In this document: positions 44,150 to 63,774 of the stretch, piece by piece
Layout of the letters: the number at the start of each line of letters is the position of its first letter
Numbering within the stretch: the first letter of the stretch is position 1
Source: Caenorhabditis elegans
Taxonomy: Eukaryota > Nematoda > Chromadorea > Rhabditida > Rhabditidae
Direction: 5' to 3'
DNA length: 64,000 nt
NCBI RefSeq assembly: GCF_000002985.6
Contig: NC_003283.11
Location: 4,960,001 to 5,024,000, forward strand
Notes under the pieces: model-generated
Told to the model about the DNA's origin: nothing
The model's database searches: none
What the model saw: the letters and a program-made list of their open reading frames with translations, nothing else
Made by a program: the position numbers and the translations under genes

Positions 44150-45735
44150 TTGGAAGAGGTATTGGGTTAAGAGTTGGTGAGGGATAATGTCAAGGTACTG
44201 TAGTGGTACTGTAGGAGTACTGTAGGTATACGGTAGGGTTACTGTAGTTTAGGAAAAATCAAATTTTAAACATTTTAAGAGGTATTGGCTTGGAAGTTGG
44301 TGAAAGATAATGTCAAGGTACTGTAATGGTACTGTAGGAGTACTGTAGGATTACTGTAGGGTTACTGTAGTTTGGGAAAAATTGAGTTTTAGTCTACAGA
44401 AGGGGTATTGGGTTGGGAGTTGCCGGGGGATAATGTCAAGGTACTGTAGTGGTACTGTAGGAGTACTGTAGGTATACGGTAGGGTTACTGTAGTTTGGGA
44501 AAAATTGAGTTTTAGTCTACAGAAGGGGTATTGGGTTGGGAGTTGCCGGGGGATAATGTCAAGGTACTGTAGTAGTACTGTAGGAGTACTGTAGGTATAC
44601 GGTAGGGTTACTGTAGTTTGGGAAAAATTGAGTTTTTGTCTACAGAAGAGGTATTGGGTTGGGAGTTGCCGGGGGATAATGTCAAGGTACTGTAGTGGTA
44701 CTGTAGGAGTACTGTAGGTATACGGTAGGGTTACTGTAGTTTGGGAAAAATTGAGTTTTAGTCTACAGAAGAGGTATTGGGTTGGGAGTTGCCGGGGGAT
44801 AATGTCAAGGTACTGTAGTAGTACTGTAGGAGTACTGTAGGTATACGATAGGGTTACTGTAGTTTGGGAAAAATTGAGTTTTTGTCTACAGAAGAGGTAT
44901 TGGGTTGGGAGTTGCCGGGGGATAATGTCAAGGTACTGTAGTGGTACTGTAGGAGTACTGTAGGTATACGGTAGGGTTACTGTAGTTTGGGAAAAATTGA
45001 GTTTTAGTCTACAGAAGAGGTATTGGGTTGGGAGTTGCCGGGGGATAATGTCAAGGTACTGTAGTAGTACTGTAGGAGTACTGTAGGTATACGATAGGGT
45101 TACTGTAGTTTAGAAAAAATTGAGTTTTTGTCTACAGAAGAGGTATTGGGTTGGGAGTTGGTGAGGGATAATGTCAAGGTACTGTAGTGGTACTGTAGGA
45201 GTACTGAAGGTATACGGTAGGGTTACTGTAGTTTAGAAATAATTGAATTTTAAACATTTTAAGAGGTATTGGCTTGGAAGTTGGTGGAGGATAATGTCAA
45301 GGTACTGTAGTGGTACTGTAGGAGTACTGTAGGTATACGGTAGGGTTACTGTAGTTTGGGAAAAATTGAGTTTTAGTCTACAGAAGGGGTATTGGGTTGG
45401 GAGTTGCCGGGGGATAATGTCAAGGTACTGTAGTGGTACTGTAGGAGTACTGAAGGTATACGGTAGGGTTACTGTAGTTTAGAAATAATTGAATTTTAAA
45501 CATTTTAAGAGGTATTGGCTTGGAAGTTGGTGGAGGATAATGTCAAGGTACTGAGTGGTACTGTAGGAGTACTGAAGGTATACGGTAGGGTTACTGTAGT
45601 TTAGAAAAAATCAAATTTTAAACATTTTAAGAGGTATTGGCTTGGAAGTTGGTGAAAGATAATGTCAAGGTACTGTAATGGTACTGTAGGAGTACTGTAG
45701 GATTACTGTAGGGTTACTGTAGTAAGGAAGAATTT
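44150..45735 (+). repeat. Minisatellite with a period of about 122 bp
   Basis: About 13 units, each with TAATGTCAAGGTACTGTAG, then GTACTGTAGGAGTACTGTAG, a TATACGGTAGGG block, a GGGAAAAATTGAG block and GGTATTGGGTTGGGAG. Units carry an inner GTACTGTAG subrepeat. Variants alternate (GTAGTGG/GTAGTAG, CGGTAGG/CGATAGG), which suggests higher-order dimers of about 245 bp. Confidence 0.85.
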
Positions 45736-45825
45736 GAATTTTAAGCATTTGAAAACATTTTGGCGGGAATTCAAATTTTAATTTTTTGAAAGTAATTTGG
45801 CGGTAATTGAATTCTCGTGGAATTC

Positions 45826-46785
45826 ACCTTTCGTGGTAAGACCCTTCGTGGTGAGACCCATCGTGGTGAGACTCTTCGTGGTGAGATCTTTCGTGGTGAG
45901 ACCCATCGTGGTGAGACCTTTCGTGGTGAGACCTTTCGTGTTGAGGCCCATCGTGGTGAGACCTTTCGTGGTGAGACCCATCGTGGTAAGACCCTTCGTG
46001 GTGAGACCCATCGTGGTGAGACTCTTCGTGATGAGATCTTTCGTGTTGAGACCCATCGTGGTGAGACCTTTCGTGTTGAGACCCTCCGTGGTGAGACCTT
46101 TCGTGTTGAGACCCATCGTGGTGAGACCTTTCGTGGTGAGACCCATCGTGGTGAGACCCATCGTGCTGAGACTCTTCGTGGTGAGATCTTTCGTGTTGAG
46201 ACCCATCGTGGTGAGACCTTTCGTGTTGAGACCCTCCGTGGTGAGACCTTTCGTGTTGAGACCCATCGTGGTGAGACCTTTCGTGGTAAGACCCTTCGCG
46301 GTGAGACCCGTCGTGGTAAGACCCTTCGTGGTGAGTCCCATCGTGGTAAGACCCATCGTGGTGAGACCCATCGTGGTGAGATCTTTCGTGATGAGACCTT
46401 TCGTGGTGAGACCCATCGTGGTGAGACCTTTCGCGGTGAGACCTTTCGTGTTGAGACCCTCCGTGGTGAGACCTTTCGTGTTGAGACCCATCGTGGTGAG
46501 ACCTTTCGTGGTAAGACCCTTCGCGGTGAGACCCGTCGTGGTAAGACCCTTCGTGGTGAGTCCCATCGTGGTGAGACCCATCGTGGTGAGATCTTTCGTG
46601 GTGAGACCTTTCGTGGTGAGACCCATCGTGGTGAGACCTTTCGTGGTGAGATCTTTCGTGGTGAGACCCATTGTGGTGAGAACTTTCGCGGTGAGACCTT
46701 TCGTATTGAGACCCATCGTGGTAAGACCCATCGTGGTGAGGCCCATCGTGGTGAGACCCTTCGTGAGGAGACTCTTCGTGTTTGA
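45826..46785 (+). repeat. 15-bp minisatellite, about 64 units
   Basis: Units are ACCCATCGTGGTGAG and ACCTTTCGTGGTGAG with variants (CTTCG, CTCCG, TTGAG, AAGAC). The length is a multiple of three and units lack stops, so several frames on both strands stay open for over 300 codons. These are not genes. A short array of the same unit in reverse orientation lies at 50548-50672. Confidence 0.9.
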
Positions 46786-49244
46786 TATTATATTAGCTAA
46801 GGAGTTGGTGGGGGATAATGTCAAGGTACTCTAGGGGTATTGTGGAATTGCTGTAGGGTTACTGTAGTTCAGGAAAAATTGACTTTGTGCTTTTGAAGAG
46901 GTATTGGCTCGAGAGTTAGAGAGGTGGAAGCTTCTGTGATATTTTTTAGCCTCCAGGATGTTTGAAAAAGAAAAGTTTTCACCTGTTTTCAAGTGACATT
47001 GTTTTTTATGGTGTTTTATGTGTCGAACACTTTAAATGTCGCCAGTCGTTGGCCGCGCCGTAGGCGCGGTCAGCGGCTGGTTAATAATATCCTGTCACGT
47101 ATTGCTTGCTCTCACACCAGTTCACCAAAATGTGTGATTTGTGATAAAGATTAGGATAACCAAAATTTCATATAAAAACTGCTGATATTTCCTGATATTG
47201 GCAACTATTATTATTATTATTCTAAACAATGTTCACGTCGTCAACTGAAGTTCAAAAAATTCCTCCTGGCACGTTTTGCGCTGATATTACACCAGCAGCC
47301 AAAGAAGTTTTTACAGAGGATAACTTTTTGGGACCTTATAGTATTATTTTAAAGTAAGCTATTTTTAAAAATTTTTATCGGTTTTGTAAACTTGATTGTT
47401 CGGAACATGTCAAAACAAAACATTTACTTTTCTTCTTACATAATTTAATTGTTTCAGTATTTCGTGAGTGATTTTCTCACGCATATACCAAATATTTTGA
47501 AATTTCTTTGAGTTTATCTTCAAAAGTTATATTACAAAATACATGTGTACACCTAAAAATCTATAGAACTGTGTTTTTTTAAATATTTTTTACAATTCAT
47601 GTTTTTTTGAAATGGTCAGCAATCGGCAGTTTTTATTTTTAGTTTTTATTTTCAATTTTATTTTTAGTATTTTTAATCAAGTCCCATCAGAAAATTTGGT
47701 CTTCGAGGGCCGTTTTAATTTTTTACAGTGTTAAATTATCCTGGAAAATTTTGAATCAGTATTTTATGTTTGTACCCTAAAATATTAATATACAAATTCA
47801 ATAATGTGAAAGATTCTAAAATATATTTTTTTAAGTTATCAAAAATTTGACAACGTCAATGACAATAAACATCAAACCATTTTTATTGGCATCTAAAAAT
47901 TCTAACAACCAGTAAAATTCCAGATTCAGCGGGTTAGATTGCTCACGAGTTTCCCAATCTAAAACTGACAATGTGTCACGCCTCAAATCATGGATCACAC
48001 AACTTGTGCCATTACTCATCATTGCTCTAACCGTTCTGCGATGCTATACACTATTCCAGTTAGAAGCTCGCTCAATGTCTTTTCAATGGGCAGAATGTAG
48101 TATGTTCGCGTATATGGGAGTTCAGTCTGTCGAATATGCATATAGTTTGTATAGTTGGAGCAAAAAACATTTTATATCAAGCCATCTTGAGAGTCTGGAG
48201 AATATTCGGTTACTTCGGCTGAAAGATAACAAAAATATCGACAATTGTTTAAAGTCTCATATCAAAATTTTTATTTGGTCGTGCTTATGGATAGTCGGTG
48301 TAATGGCTCACGCAATATGTAGTTCGATTAATGAAAAAATATTTTTAAGCTTGTGAGACCTTTCTAAAACTAAAAAATATTATTTTTGATCCGTTTATTC
48401 CAGCCCTTCAATAATTCCAGTCCTGTATTATACAATGCCATTTGTAACTATGTGGGTTTCTGTAATTGTCATCAATTGCCTGGCTTATTATCATATTGTA
48501 AACCAGCCGTTCGCACGCGCTGAAGCGCGTGCTCCGACTGGCGTACTCAAAATTGAAATCAAATTCTAAATTTTCTAAGCCTTCTTTGCAGATGGAACGT
48601 TTTTTCCCTGGTTACCGGAAATTTTCGAGCAACATAAATATTATATAACTAAGTTCTGAGCAATTACAACTTAAAACCTCAAGTTTCCTGGAACTATTTC
48701 TAAATTTCTTGAACGTATAATTTTCTCTATGTTCTTCAAATCATATGAAACATTTTCCGGTCCTTTCCGAAAGTTTTTGGCGAGCGTTTCTGAAAATTAT
48801 AACAATTTTTGATAGTTTTTTAAAATTATTGAAACTTCAGAATATTCTAGGAGTATCAAAACTTGAAGAAACACCGTCACGCGCAAATGCATACACTTTT
48901 TTCAACGCGCTGCGTGAAAATTCCTCTTGCGATTTCAAAGTTTTTTTCCCGCCATTTCAGTGTCCAATGGAGCGCGGGGTCGAGCCAGAACCCCGTGTAG
49001 AACTTTGCAGAAGTTTCTTGAATTTTTCCACGAAATTGAACATTTCAGAATTTTATCGGATTTTCTAGAAAGTTCTGGAATATTCCAGAGTTTTCCCGAA
49101 TTTTCTAGAAAATTCTGGACCATTCCAGAACTTTCTAGAATTTTCTAGAAAATTCTGGACCATTCCGGAATTTTCTCGAATTTTCTAGAAACTTCTGGAA
49201 CATTGCAGACATTTCTCGATTTTTCTCAGAAATTGGAATTTTCC

Positions 49245-50540
49245 GCCAAAATTGTTTTTCACTGAAAATTTGAATTTCCCGCCAAAATTGTTTTTCACTG
49301 AAAATTTGAATTTCCCGCCAAAATTTTTTTCACTGAAAATTTGAATTTCCCGCCAAAATTTTTTTCACTGAAAATTTTAATTTCCCGCCAAAATTTTTTT
49401 CACTTAAAATTTGAATTTCCCGCCAAAATTTTTTTCACAGAAAATTTGAATTTCCCGCCAAAATGTTTTACACTGCAAATTTGAATTTCCCGCTAAAATT
49501 TTTTTCACTGAAAATTTGAATTTCCCGCCAAAAATTTTTTTCACTGAAAATTTGAATTTCCCGCCAAAATTTTTTTCACTGAAAATTTGAATTTCCCGCC
49601 AAAATTGTTTTTCACTGAAAATTTGAATTTCTCGCCAAAATTTTTTTCACTGAAAATTTGAATTTCCCACCAAAATTTTTTTCACTGAAAATTTGAATTT
49701 CCCGCCAAAATTTTTTTCACTGAAAATTTGAATTTCCCGCCAAAATGTTTTTCACTGAAAATTTGAATTTCCCGCCAAAATTTTTTTCACTGAAAATTTG
49801 AATTTCCCGCCAAAATTTTTTTCACAGAAAATTTGAATTTCCCGCCAAAATGTTTTACACTGCAAATTTGAATTTCCCGCTAAAATTTTTTTCACTTAAA
49901 ATTTGAATTTCCCGCCAAAATTTTTTTCACAGAAAATTTGAATTTCCCGCCAAAATTTTTTACACTGCAAATTTGAATTTCCCGCTAAAATTTTTTTCAC
50001 TTAAAATTTGAATTTCCCGCCAAAATTATTTTTCACTGAAAATTTGAATTTCCCGCTAAAATTTTTTTCACTGAAAATTTGAATTTCCCGGCAAAAATTT
50101 TTCACTGAAAATTTGAATTTCCCGCCAAAATTTTTTTCACTGAAAATTTGAATTTCCCGCCAAAATTTTTTTCACTGAAAATTTTAATTTCCCGCCAACA
50201 TTTTTTTCACTGAAAATTTGAATTTCCCGCCAAAAATTTTTTCACTGAAAATTTGAATTTCCCGCCAAAATTTTTTTCACTGAAAATTTGAATTTCCCGC
50301 CAAAATTTTTTCACTGAAAATTTGAATTTCCCGCCAAAATTTTTTCACTGAAAATTTGAATTTCCCGCCAAAATTTTTTCACTGAAAATTTGAATTTCCC
50401 GCCAACATTTTTTTCACTGAAAATTTGAATTTCCCGCCAAAATTTTTTTCACTTAAAATTTGAATTTCCCGCCAAAATTTTTTCACTGAAAATTTGAATT
50501 TCCCGCCAAAATTTTTTCACTGAAAATTTGAATTTTGTGC
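49245..50540 (+). repeat. 35-bp minisatellite, about 37 units
   Basis: Units of about 34-36 bp read TTTTTTTCACTGAAAATTTG then AATTTCCCGCCAAAA. Variants (CACAGAAAA, CACTTAAAA, TACACTGCAA, CCCGCTAAAA) recur in the same order, for example near 49430-49510 and 49815-49895, which points to duplication of multi-unit blocks. Confidence 0.9.
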
Positions 50541-50547
50541 CAAAAAT

Positions 50548-50672
50548 GTGGGTCTCACCGCGAAGGGTCTCACCACGATGGGTCTCACCACGAAGGGTCT
50601 CACCACGATGGGTCTCACCACGATGGGTCTCACCACGAAGGGTATCACCACGATGGGTCTCACCACGAAGGT
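50548..50672 (-). repeat. Short 15-bp minisatellite array, inverted relative to 45826-46785
   Basis: About eight units of GGTCTCACCACGATG/GGTCTCACCACGAAG, the reverse complement of the unit in Helitron 1. Because the two elements lie in opposite orientation, the arrays can pair as a long inverted repeat. Confidence 0.88.
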
Positions 50673-51702
50673 GACAGGCCCCGCCCACAACTCTCACTGA
50701 CTTTGGGTGTGACGTCACAGACTACAAAGACTACATAGACTACAAACTATGGACAGACGAACTGTATTTTTTTATATATAAGTAATGATATTTCACTAAA
50801 ACGAGAAATTGAATATTTCAACGTTGAACTAGAAGAAGCCCAGACAACAAAAACTCTTCATAAGTCTGATGCTCTACAAAGGTTTTGTCACAGACAGAAG
50901 GAATTGATTGGTCTAGTCAGAAAAGCGAACAAACATCTGGGAGATTATACTGGGACAACTCCAATTGCATGTTTCAATGCTTGTGTCAATGGTACTTACA
51001 TGTGGTTTGGGTTAGTTTTTTACTTTCAGTTTTTTTTCATCTTTTAAAACGCAATTGCGGGCAGCTGGAAATTTTGACAATTTTCATACTTAACTATATT
51101 TCGAAAATTCTAAAACTTAACCAAACTCTCATTTTCGTAGCAATCAGAAATTTCCAATTGTTGACCTTAACTTTATACTTCAAAAAAATTCAATTGCCGC
51201 CCACCTAATTCGTGATTTTAGCTAAAATACTGCAATTTAAATAGTATTAAGCACGTCAAATTACCACGGCTCAAATTTTCTCTGCATTAACAATTTTTAT
51301 TACCAAATTTGATCTACATGACTGTTTGTTTATTTTACAATTTTCCCATCTTTTCCCATGTCCACATATAAAAGTTTATACGTATTCAGGTTTCATGATT
51401 TTCCTATGGACTCTTCGATTTCATCAATAATTCTTAAATATAACATATTTGCTGTTTTGTTTATCACATTCTTCTCTCTTCGACCAGCGAGCAATGTGCA
51501 ATTTCAACTGGCAGACACTGCTCGTATACTAATGGAAAATGAGGAATTCGGAAAAACAAAAGATTCGGAAGTAGTCAATACTTATCACACGATGATTGAT
51601 AGATCACTCAGGCATACAGCACGGCTCCGAGTTCATGGTGGAATACCTATTTATCCAAAAACTGTCAATATTGCTATGTTTTTTATTCCAATGATTGTTT
51701 GA

Positions 51703-52993: not shown

Positions 52994-55059
52994 ATGATTA
53001 CTCCAAGTCCTGAAGTCGTGGGTGACGAGGTTTCGTGTCCATCTATTATTGAAATACCTTCAACAAAAGAACCTTTGTCAGAGAATGCTTTACTTGGACC
53101 ATTTCGTAAAATTATTAAGTGAGTTTTTTTTCAATTTTTAATATTTAATTCTTAATTTCTTTTTTTTTCAGTGTTTATATAATGTTCTTCAAACTGAATT
53201 CTTTCACATTTTTGCAAATAATTAAACTTCTCAAAAACTTGAAATTGGTTTTCAACTGATTTACAATTATTCTAGGAAAATTTTTTAAATTAATATTAAC
53301 TCCTTATAACTGAGACATACATAGTTTTTAATTTCACAATTTTGAATACCTTCACTTTATTAGAGCTGTGATGTAGGCACTTTTTCACCAGGCCATTGAA
53401 CAATATAAGGAAAAGTCATTTTCATAAATTGAGTACTTTCCAGAGTTAAGACGATTCCAAAAAACTAAAACTGGCCTGAAACCGTATGAGACATCTCAGA
53501 AATTTCATGTAAAATTTTTGGACAATGATCCTTTTTTCTCAAAACTTTGAGCAGCTATAATAACGTTTTGAGAAATTTCTAAAACTTCCTACTTCAGAAT
53601 CACCGGACTCGACTGCTCTCTGATTGCTCGTGCCGAGTTCAATCCATCCCTACGAATCAAGTCGATTCTGACAAGAATAGTGGCTTTAGTCGTCGTTGCA
53701 ATTGTTTTCTTTCGAATGGCAATTTACTCAAAAGCAGAAGGAGCATGTCTATCACTTGCCTGGGCAGAAGGAAACATGTTCCAGTTTATGGCACTTCAAA
53801 CAATTGTCTGTGCACTTTGTCTTTTTGGATGGACAAAAAATTCGTTTATTTCAAAGCATCTCGGGAGGCTCGAGAAAGTCAGATCTCTACGAATCAAGGA
53901 AAATATTGAAATGGATAACTACTCCAACACACATCGAAAAGCTTTCATATGGTCTGGATTTTATATTGCGGCGATAATGAGCCATGCAATCATGAGTTCT
54001 ATAGCTCAAAAAATTTTAATTGCAAAGTGAGTTTTGTTTTATTATTCAGTTTTAAATATTCATATATTTTTTCAGCAAAACAGTCATAGCTCCCTTGTAC
54101 ATCGCAATGGTTTTTATAAATCTTCTGTCATGTTTCATAGTTGCAATTTGTCTCATTTATTATTTTCTGGTCAATCTTTCTCTGAGTCGAGAAATTCGAT
54201 ATTTTAATACTGAATTGGAAGACGCAAAACAAGGAAGACGCCTACAGATTTCTGGAGTTTTATCTGATTTCTGTCATCGACAAGCAGAATTGATCCGCGT
54301 TGTTAGAGAAACCAATGAATCGCTGCAGAGTTATGCTACTGTTGCTCCGTTATTTGCATTCAATAGTTTAATTAATGCAGTTTTTATTGCCAGTGGGTAA
54401 GTGGAGTTTGTTTTATTGTTTTTATTAAAAATGATTGAAAATGAAACTGTAATTTATCAAAAACAAATTTCGATTTCGAAATGTAAAAACAGTTCATCAT
54501 TGAAAACTGTTAACAGTTTTTCACATGATTTATTTTTACCATCAACTTTTCATAAAAAAACATAAATATTTTGGAAAATATGAACTGTGTACATTTTTTG
54601 AATTTTTAAATCCCCTTTTCTTATTTTCTGTAATTTTGGACAAAAAAACTCAAAAACTCCCAATTTTCCGTAAATTTCTTTTAATTTTTGAATATTTTCA
54701 GATTCAGCAGTTCACTTCCCCCTGTCGTTTTTGGCGTACTTCTTTTTGATTTGTTCGCTGTAATTGGCCTAACATTCTTCACACTGCGACCAGCTAGCAA
54801 TGTCCAATACGACCTAGCTCAGACAGCCAGAATACTGATGGACAGCGAAGAATTCGAAGGATCACAGGACGTAGAAGTATTCAAGGCTTATCAAGTGATG
54901 ATCAACAGATCTCTGAAGCATACTGCCCATATTCGAGTTGTTGGAGCCATTCCAATTTATCCAACAAGTGCTCATTTTGCCTTCCTTCTTATTCCAAATT
55001 TGGGAAATATACTCGCAATTGTTAGAAAAGTTCTTGTAGAACAAGGAATTCAGATTTGA
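52994..55059 (+). CDS. SRR/gustatory-receptor-like 7TM receptor C
   Basis: Four exons: 52994-53118, 53598-54026, 54076-54396 and 54702-55059, giving 410 residues. It is the cleanest copy and served as the model for the others. The N-terminus has ENALLGPFRKII. TM1 is LVVVAIVFFRMAIY, TM2 ends CALCLFGWTKN, TM4 is a long hydrophobic stretch ending YYFLVNLSLSREIRYFN, the loop has DFCHRQAELIRVVRETNESLQ, and TM7 contains FLLIPNLGNIL. A conserved ILMDSEEFE and YQVMINRSLKHT segment precedes TM7. AATAAA lies at 55197-55202. A chemosensory role is inferred from the family. Confidence 0.78.
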
Positions 55060-62935: not shown

Positions 62936-63245
62936 CGGGAAATTCAAACTTTATGAGAAAATTTTTCGGCGGGACATTTGAATTTTCTGAAAGAAATGTA
63001 CAATTCTAATGTGTCCAGAACTTTTTTTCTAGAACCTTCTGAAAAATTCGAGCAAATTCTTGAATTATCTTCTCGAAAGTTCAAGAACTTAGTTTTAATA
63101 TTGGTAACTTAGTTATAATATTTATTTTGCTCGAATACTTCTGACAAAATTGTGAAAAACGTTCCATCTGATGAGAAAGGCGTAGAAATTTTAGAGTTTA
63201 ATTTTAATTTTGAGGATGCCTGGCAGATCACGCGTTTTAGCGCCT
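62936..63245 (+). mobile_element. Truncated Helitron 3' fragment
   Basis: It is homologous to the 3' part of Helitron 2 (reverse complement of about 48530-48720 and minisatellite-like GGGAAATTCAAA at its start). It shares ACGTTCCATCTG, CTCGAATA, the TTCTAGAA-rich part and a decayed terminal hairpin near 63228. The final CTGG is missing. It is an older copy of the same family. Confidence 0.65.
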
Positions 63246-63774
63246 GCGTATTTTTATAATTTATATTTTTTTCCTATTTTTCTCTTATTTTCACGTTCAA
63301 ATAAACGTATGTATTAAAAAATAAAATAAAATAATGTCCAATTATACAAACTTCGCTCAAGGAAAAAATGAAAATTTTCAAAAGTTGCCGCGCAGTTTTT
63401 CATTTGAAATATATTTTCTAATTGAACTTGGTGAATCGAAAACATGAAGAAATCCCCTAATTAGGTTTTTATACTAGTTTCTCAATTTTCCGCGCGCTGA
63501 ACCAATATTGCGTCATCGACTGACTGGGTGTAGCAGGCGTGTAGCAGGCGTCATCGACTGACTGGGTGTAGCAGGTTTTCCGCGCGCTGAACCAATATTG
63601 CGTCATCGACTGACTGGGTGTCAAGGCCTGAAACCGCGCCTGCCTGCCTGCCGATAAATCATAACGACAGTTGGGAGCATTAGTACAAATTAATGAAATC
63701 ATTATCAAACATAAAAATAAATTTATAACAATACAACCATAAATACAAACAATATTCACATTTCTCCAGTAACT
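63246..63774. other. Intergenic region with a small tandem duplication
   Basis: A 46-bp unit with CGCGCGCTGAACCAATATTG and CGTCATCGACTGACTGGGTG occurs at 63486-63531 and 63576-63621, with a partial third copy between. An AGGC-rich tract follows. It is the 3' flank of the acyltransferase gene. Confidence 0.6.

Follow-up and report, generated by a model that had tools for sequence, protein, structure and literature searches.

The window analyzed here, a 64,000-nucleotide stretch of the Caenorhabditis elegans genome (NC_003283.11, positions 4,960,001 to 5,024,000), carries on its plus strand an interrupted DUF267 receptor-like gene and an uninterrupted paralogue, receptor C (52994..55059), which encodes 410 amino acids in exons of 125, 429, 321, and 358 nt. 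The interrupted gene consists of exon 1 (47229..47353, 125 nt), exon 2 (47924..48352, 429 nt), an exon 3 split into a part before the insert (48404..48502, 99 nt) and a part after it (50789..51010, 222 nt), and exon 4 with the stop codon (51390..51702). Exons 1 and 2 match those of paralogue C in length, and the two parts of exon 3 add up, as the preliminary description had calculated, to 99 + 222 = 321 nt, the size of the corresponding paralogue exon (54076-54396, 321 nt); with the insert removed, the junction codon also becomes Asn, as in paralogue C. In the alignment of the two proteins, 170 of 397 positions (43%) carry the same residue, and no gap falls within exons 2-3.

Assignment of both genes to DUF267 (PF03268) is supported at the curated cutoff of 25 by scores of 487.9 bits for paralogue C (E 2.1e-146) and 148.9 bits for the 140-residue exon 2 peptide of the interrupted gene. 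We take DUF267 to be the srr chemoreceptor family. Eight loci similar to paralogue C were found, the interrupted gene and paralogue C included, and two of them were run against Pfam; the srr family of C. elegans has been described as comprising 10 genes (PMC2576165). The insertion point is read through in all seven of the other family members found, namely, paralogue C, genes at 42.4 and 61.6 kb of the window, and genes on contig 5 at 7.74 Mb (two), 15.13 Mb, and 13.05 Mb. A conserved intron at this position was rejected on the basis of these seven uninterrupted members, and a chance equality of exon lengths was rejected given that exons 1, 2, and 3 all agree and that the ends of the insert recur in other copies. 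A literature search conducted without the gene's own name retrieved no publication on the disrupted gene among the matches listed.

Canonical Helitrons begin with TC and end with CTRR, insert between A and T without target duplication, and carry a short GC-rich hairpin a few bases upstream of the CTRR. The insert in exon 3 is a two-ended, nonautonomous Helitron of 2286 bp that occupies window positions 48503-50788 on the minus strand, antisense to the receptor gene, exactly where the preliminary description had placed it. Read on that strand, the element follows an A, begins TCATTACTT, and runs through the hairpin to a terminal CTGG, after which comes a T; with its flanks, the 5′ junction reads GTGAAATA followed by TCATTACTTATATATAAAAAAATACAG, and the 3′ junction reads GCACGCGCTTCAGCGCGTGC GAACGG CTGG followed by TTTACAAT. 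The 3′ end (48503..48548, minus strand) contains the hairpin GCACGCGCT-TC-AGCGCGTGC, then GAACGG and the terminal CTGG, such that the 9-bp stem ends 6 nt before the CTGG. Folding of the last 46 nt gave -16.6 kcal/mol (z -3.48), and none of 200 shuffled sequences folded as well; Rfam returned no match in the window at gathering scores. The 5′ end (50672..50788, minus strand), which starts TCATTACTT, is 93% identical to the 5′ ends located beside Rep genes on contig 2. The insert lies between A and T, and 0 bp are common across it. The earlier identification of a Helitron with TC, hairpin, and CTGG ends at an A/T site is upheld by the shared ends, the hairpin fold, and the further copies described below.

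It had also been stated that the boundaries are fixed to the base by the paralogue. The exon arithmetic behind that statement holds, but comparison with the paralogue leaves the border uncertain by 1 nt: because A48502 and A50788 are the same base, two placements yield an identical joined exon, and exon 3 of the paralogue, at 54% nucleotide identity, cannot separate them. Any element with an initial T that inserts ahead of another T will show such a pair of equivalent placements. It is the TC and CTGG ends, common to other copies, that set the border exactly.

Whether the same TC and CTGG ends occur elsewhere in the genome had been left to a search, which returned at least 40 matches for each; the refuting case proposed beforehand, a lack of further copies with these ends, therefore fails. 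The 140-bp 3′ end gave at least 40 matches (best 40 of 93 candidates), eight of them at 100%, and the 117-bp 5′ end likewise gave at least 40 (best 40 of 325 candidates), with seven at 100% over 117 bp; both sets include the focal copy. The whole element gave at least 195 matches, which represent pieces of copies on both strands (best 40 of 1154 candidates scored). Two-ended loci were paired from the focal locus and 20 fetched stretches, leaving out L043 (three 3′ ends), L044 and L045 (two 5′ ends each), and L046 and L047 (no 5′-end row). All 16 resulting copies, the focal one included, have A before and T after the element; the pairing presupposes that the two ends belong together, an assumption that is uncertain for long composite copies (L034 and L042, for example). 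Sequence common across the insert amounts to 2 bp in eight of the 16 and is absent from the other eight, among them the focal copy; it never exceeds 2 bp. One of the 16, L039, starts with TA rather than TC. Over all kept rows, in which the focal copy enters a single time, A precedes the 5′ end in 33 of 34 (the exception, L062, has C), T follows the 3′ end in 30 of 30, and all 30 extracted 3′-end rows end in GAACGGCTGG; several of these rows have a common flank and are thus not independent, and rows not reaching an end were dropped. Over the 535-bp 3′ part, L033 is the most similar of the fetched copies; its 99.6% identity points to recent spread of the family and does not date the focal insertion.

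Several arrangements of these ends deserve mention in their own right. At L043 (contig 5, 6295667-6300333), three successive focal-type 3′ ends, each with the same downstream flank, accompany one 5′ end, an arrangement that could be either a local tandem duplication of part of an element plus flank or a rolling-circle product. Focal-type 5′ ends also stand behind the same 14-bp flank at four places (L056, L057, and L058), including two on contig 2 near 15.14 Mb, which suggests that this 5′ end also travels inside a larger repeat. Within the window itself, a decayed relative of the focal 3′ end lies on the plus strand at 63117-63248 (77% over 132 positions) and lacks the last bases.

Helitrons transpose by a rolling-circle mechanism, with nonautonomous copies relying on an autonomous partner that encodes Rep and a PIF1-type helicase and has matching ends. 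A genome search with the Helitron_like_N domain yielded 13 matches, which group into seven places: contig 2 has six (0.85, 1.966, 1.974, 1.982, 2.005, and 2.597 Mb), and contig 6 has the seventh. A few kilobases from each of the six contig 2 places stands a 5′ end that matches the focal one at 93% identity over 117 bp. The three that we fetched (L048, L049, and L050) are among the 16 two-ended copies; they span 7201, 8257, and 7115 bp between their ends, are likewise flanked by A and T, and match the focal 3′ end at 90% identity over their last 40 bp. Rep-type and PIF1 helicase domains were both found in L048, the one element checked for PIF1, so that this element has the gene content and matching ends of an autonomous partner. 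These protein-coding elements are most likely the enzyme source for the focal copy, supplying Rep/helicase in trans. The seventh Helitron_like_N place, on contig 6 (L070, 16947000-16951000), has one stop within the match.

Helitrons of this group in C. elegans, their heat-shock elements, and their variation among strains have already been published. Six complete elements, all on chromosome II and 7115-8956 nt long, have been reported, a range, printed for Helitron1_CE, into which L048-L050 fall; the complete elements carry 15-, 31-, and 32-nt satellites, the 32-nt one being placed in a family whose repeat measures 35 nt (PMC9918286). In the table of the same source, a position covered by one of our matches (C2:14993455-14994098, 94%) is labeled as part of Helitron1_CE, and a position covered by another (C5:14154996-14156420, 81%) as part of HelitronY1A_CE. 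These two labeled positions support placing the focal copy in the Helitron1_CE/HelitronY1A_CE group, as do the satellite pattern and the ends, which agree with the printed account. The focal copy resembles Helitron1_CE in its 5′ and 3′ ends and in its 15-nt and 32-35-nt satellites; unlike the protein-coding Helitron1_CE, it has no Rep/helicase gene and measures only 2286 bp (PMC9918286). With HelitronY1A_CE and other nonautonomous C. elegans Helitrons it shares the nonautonomous state and arrays of heat-shock elements (PMC6927752).

Some nonautonomous C. elegans Helitrons are reported to be absent from wild isolates, and the verified strain-variable examples lie in promoters (str-96, nhr-247, and fbxa-102), whereas the focal copy lies in an exon (PMC6927752). 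Many chemoreceptor genes are defective in the reference strain N2 (PMC2576165). The gene described here is likewise a receptor-family gene broken in the reference strain, the difference from the N2 alleles as described there being that a Helitron breaks it (PMC2576165). The insertion is an ordinary case of a well-described process that leaves general views unchanged, and it adds one more gene-disrupting example to a setting in which Helitrons are already known for heat-shock rewiring and wild-strain differences. Its value lies in the clean footprint it leaves in coding sequence: both ends, the target site, and the exon it interrupts are directly legible, and an uninterrupted neighbor displays the prior state.

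We are highly confident in the reading that combines the observed ends, target site, copies, ends in common with Rep-bearing elements, and break in frame: a nonautonomous copy of the Helitron1_CE/HelitronY1A_CE group inserted in an AT dinucleotide of DUF267 exon 3, with Rep/helicase acting in trans and a null allele as the expected outcome. The element would have been copied into the AT dinucleotide in antisense orientation and without target duplication, by a rolling-circle mechanism presumed from family membership. Rep/helicase would have come from the contig 2 Helitrons with the same 5′ TC and 3′ hairpin-CTGG ends. With the insert in place, the reading frame meets a stop after codon 239, 21 codons past the junction, which bears out the earlier claim of an exonic insertion that breaks the frame. 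To judge from the sequence, loss of function is probable, and the genome analyzed here is expected to carry a null allele.

The preliminary description further regarded the locus as the record of one disrupting event. The Helitron does break the frame; that it is the single lesion is not certain, because the last exon also ends early, 17 codons before that of paralogue C. The gene may accordingly carry a second lesion; impairment before the insertion, or a different 3′ end, is also possible. One possible account, which we regard as doubtful, is that the gene was already a pseudogene with a shortened C-terminus and that the Helitron landed later in unconstrained sequence, an order of events compatible with the preferred explanation. 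It draws on the observation that exon 4 of the interrupted gene stops after ...FIPMIV, while the six other matched exon 4 sequences, that of paralogue C included, continue PNLGNILAIVRKVLVEQG or similar. Against it, exons 1-4 are otherwise open with GT/AG sites, and third codon positions are the least conserved relative to paralogue C on both sides of the insert: identical sites at codon positions 1, 2, and 3 number 99, 118, and 67 of 176 for exon 2 together with exon 3 up to the insert, and 41, 47, and 34 of 74 for the second part of exon 3. This pattern indicates constraint before the insertion and cannot order the insertion relative to the early stop.

Far less probable is tolerance of the element through its removal within a new intron, leaving a shortened yet working receptor. 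Among 61 frame-keeping, stop-free pairs of splice sites, the best (donor 48452, acceptor 50893) would also remove 52 codons, and it scores 0.7 versus sums of 6.7, 6.5, and 4.7 for the gene's own three introns, in a rough scan with matrices drawn from general knowledge. That the insert is some other repeat whose borders coincide by chance with those of a Helitron has a negligible probability: over half of it is indeed minisatellite, but its ends are common to Rep-bearing elements and the A/T target is found in 16 of 16 two-ended copies.

The Helitron at 48503-50788 contains, as more than half of its length, minisatellite sequence, with a 35-bp unit in 37.3 copies (49230..50535) and a 15-bp unit in 8.1 copies (50550..50671). 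The element has 18 three-unit heat-shock-element motifs (TTCnnGAAnnTTC or GAAnnTTCnnGAA), 17 of which fall in a further tandem array (49038..49232). Against these 18, 1000 first-order simulations produced 0.18 motifs on average and 3 at most; because tandem repeats are not reproduced in such simulations, the departure from chance is overstated. Outside the element, and with the second Helitron-like stretch left out, the remaining 58,783 bases of the window contain 10 such motifs. By way of this exonic array, heat stress could conceivably drive transcripts from either the broken gene or its intact paralogue, which lies about 2.2 kb downstream of the element; we consider this quite improbable. 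If true, the insert would both inactivate a receptor and create a possible strain-specific switch from receptor function to heat-induced expression.

The second Helitron-like repeat, of a different kind, lies on the plus strand upstream of the interrupted gene (about 44150-47080). No 5′ end was found for it. The repeat ends at 47080 in a 7-bp hairpin and CTGG followed by T, leaving 148 bases to the interrupted gene's start codon, and 123-bp and 30/45-bp tandem arrays lie upstream of this end. Its last 300 bp gave 262 matches, of which eight, located elsewhere and at 82-92% identity, are near full length.
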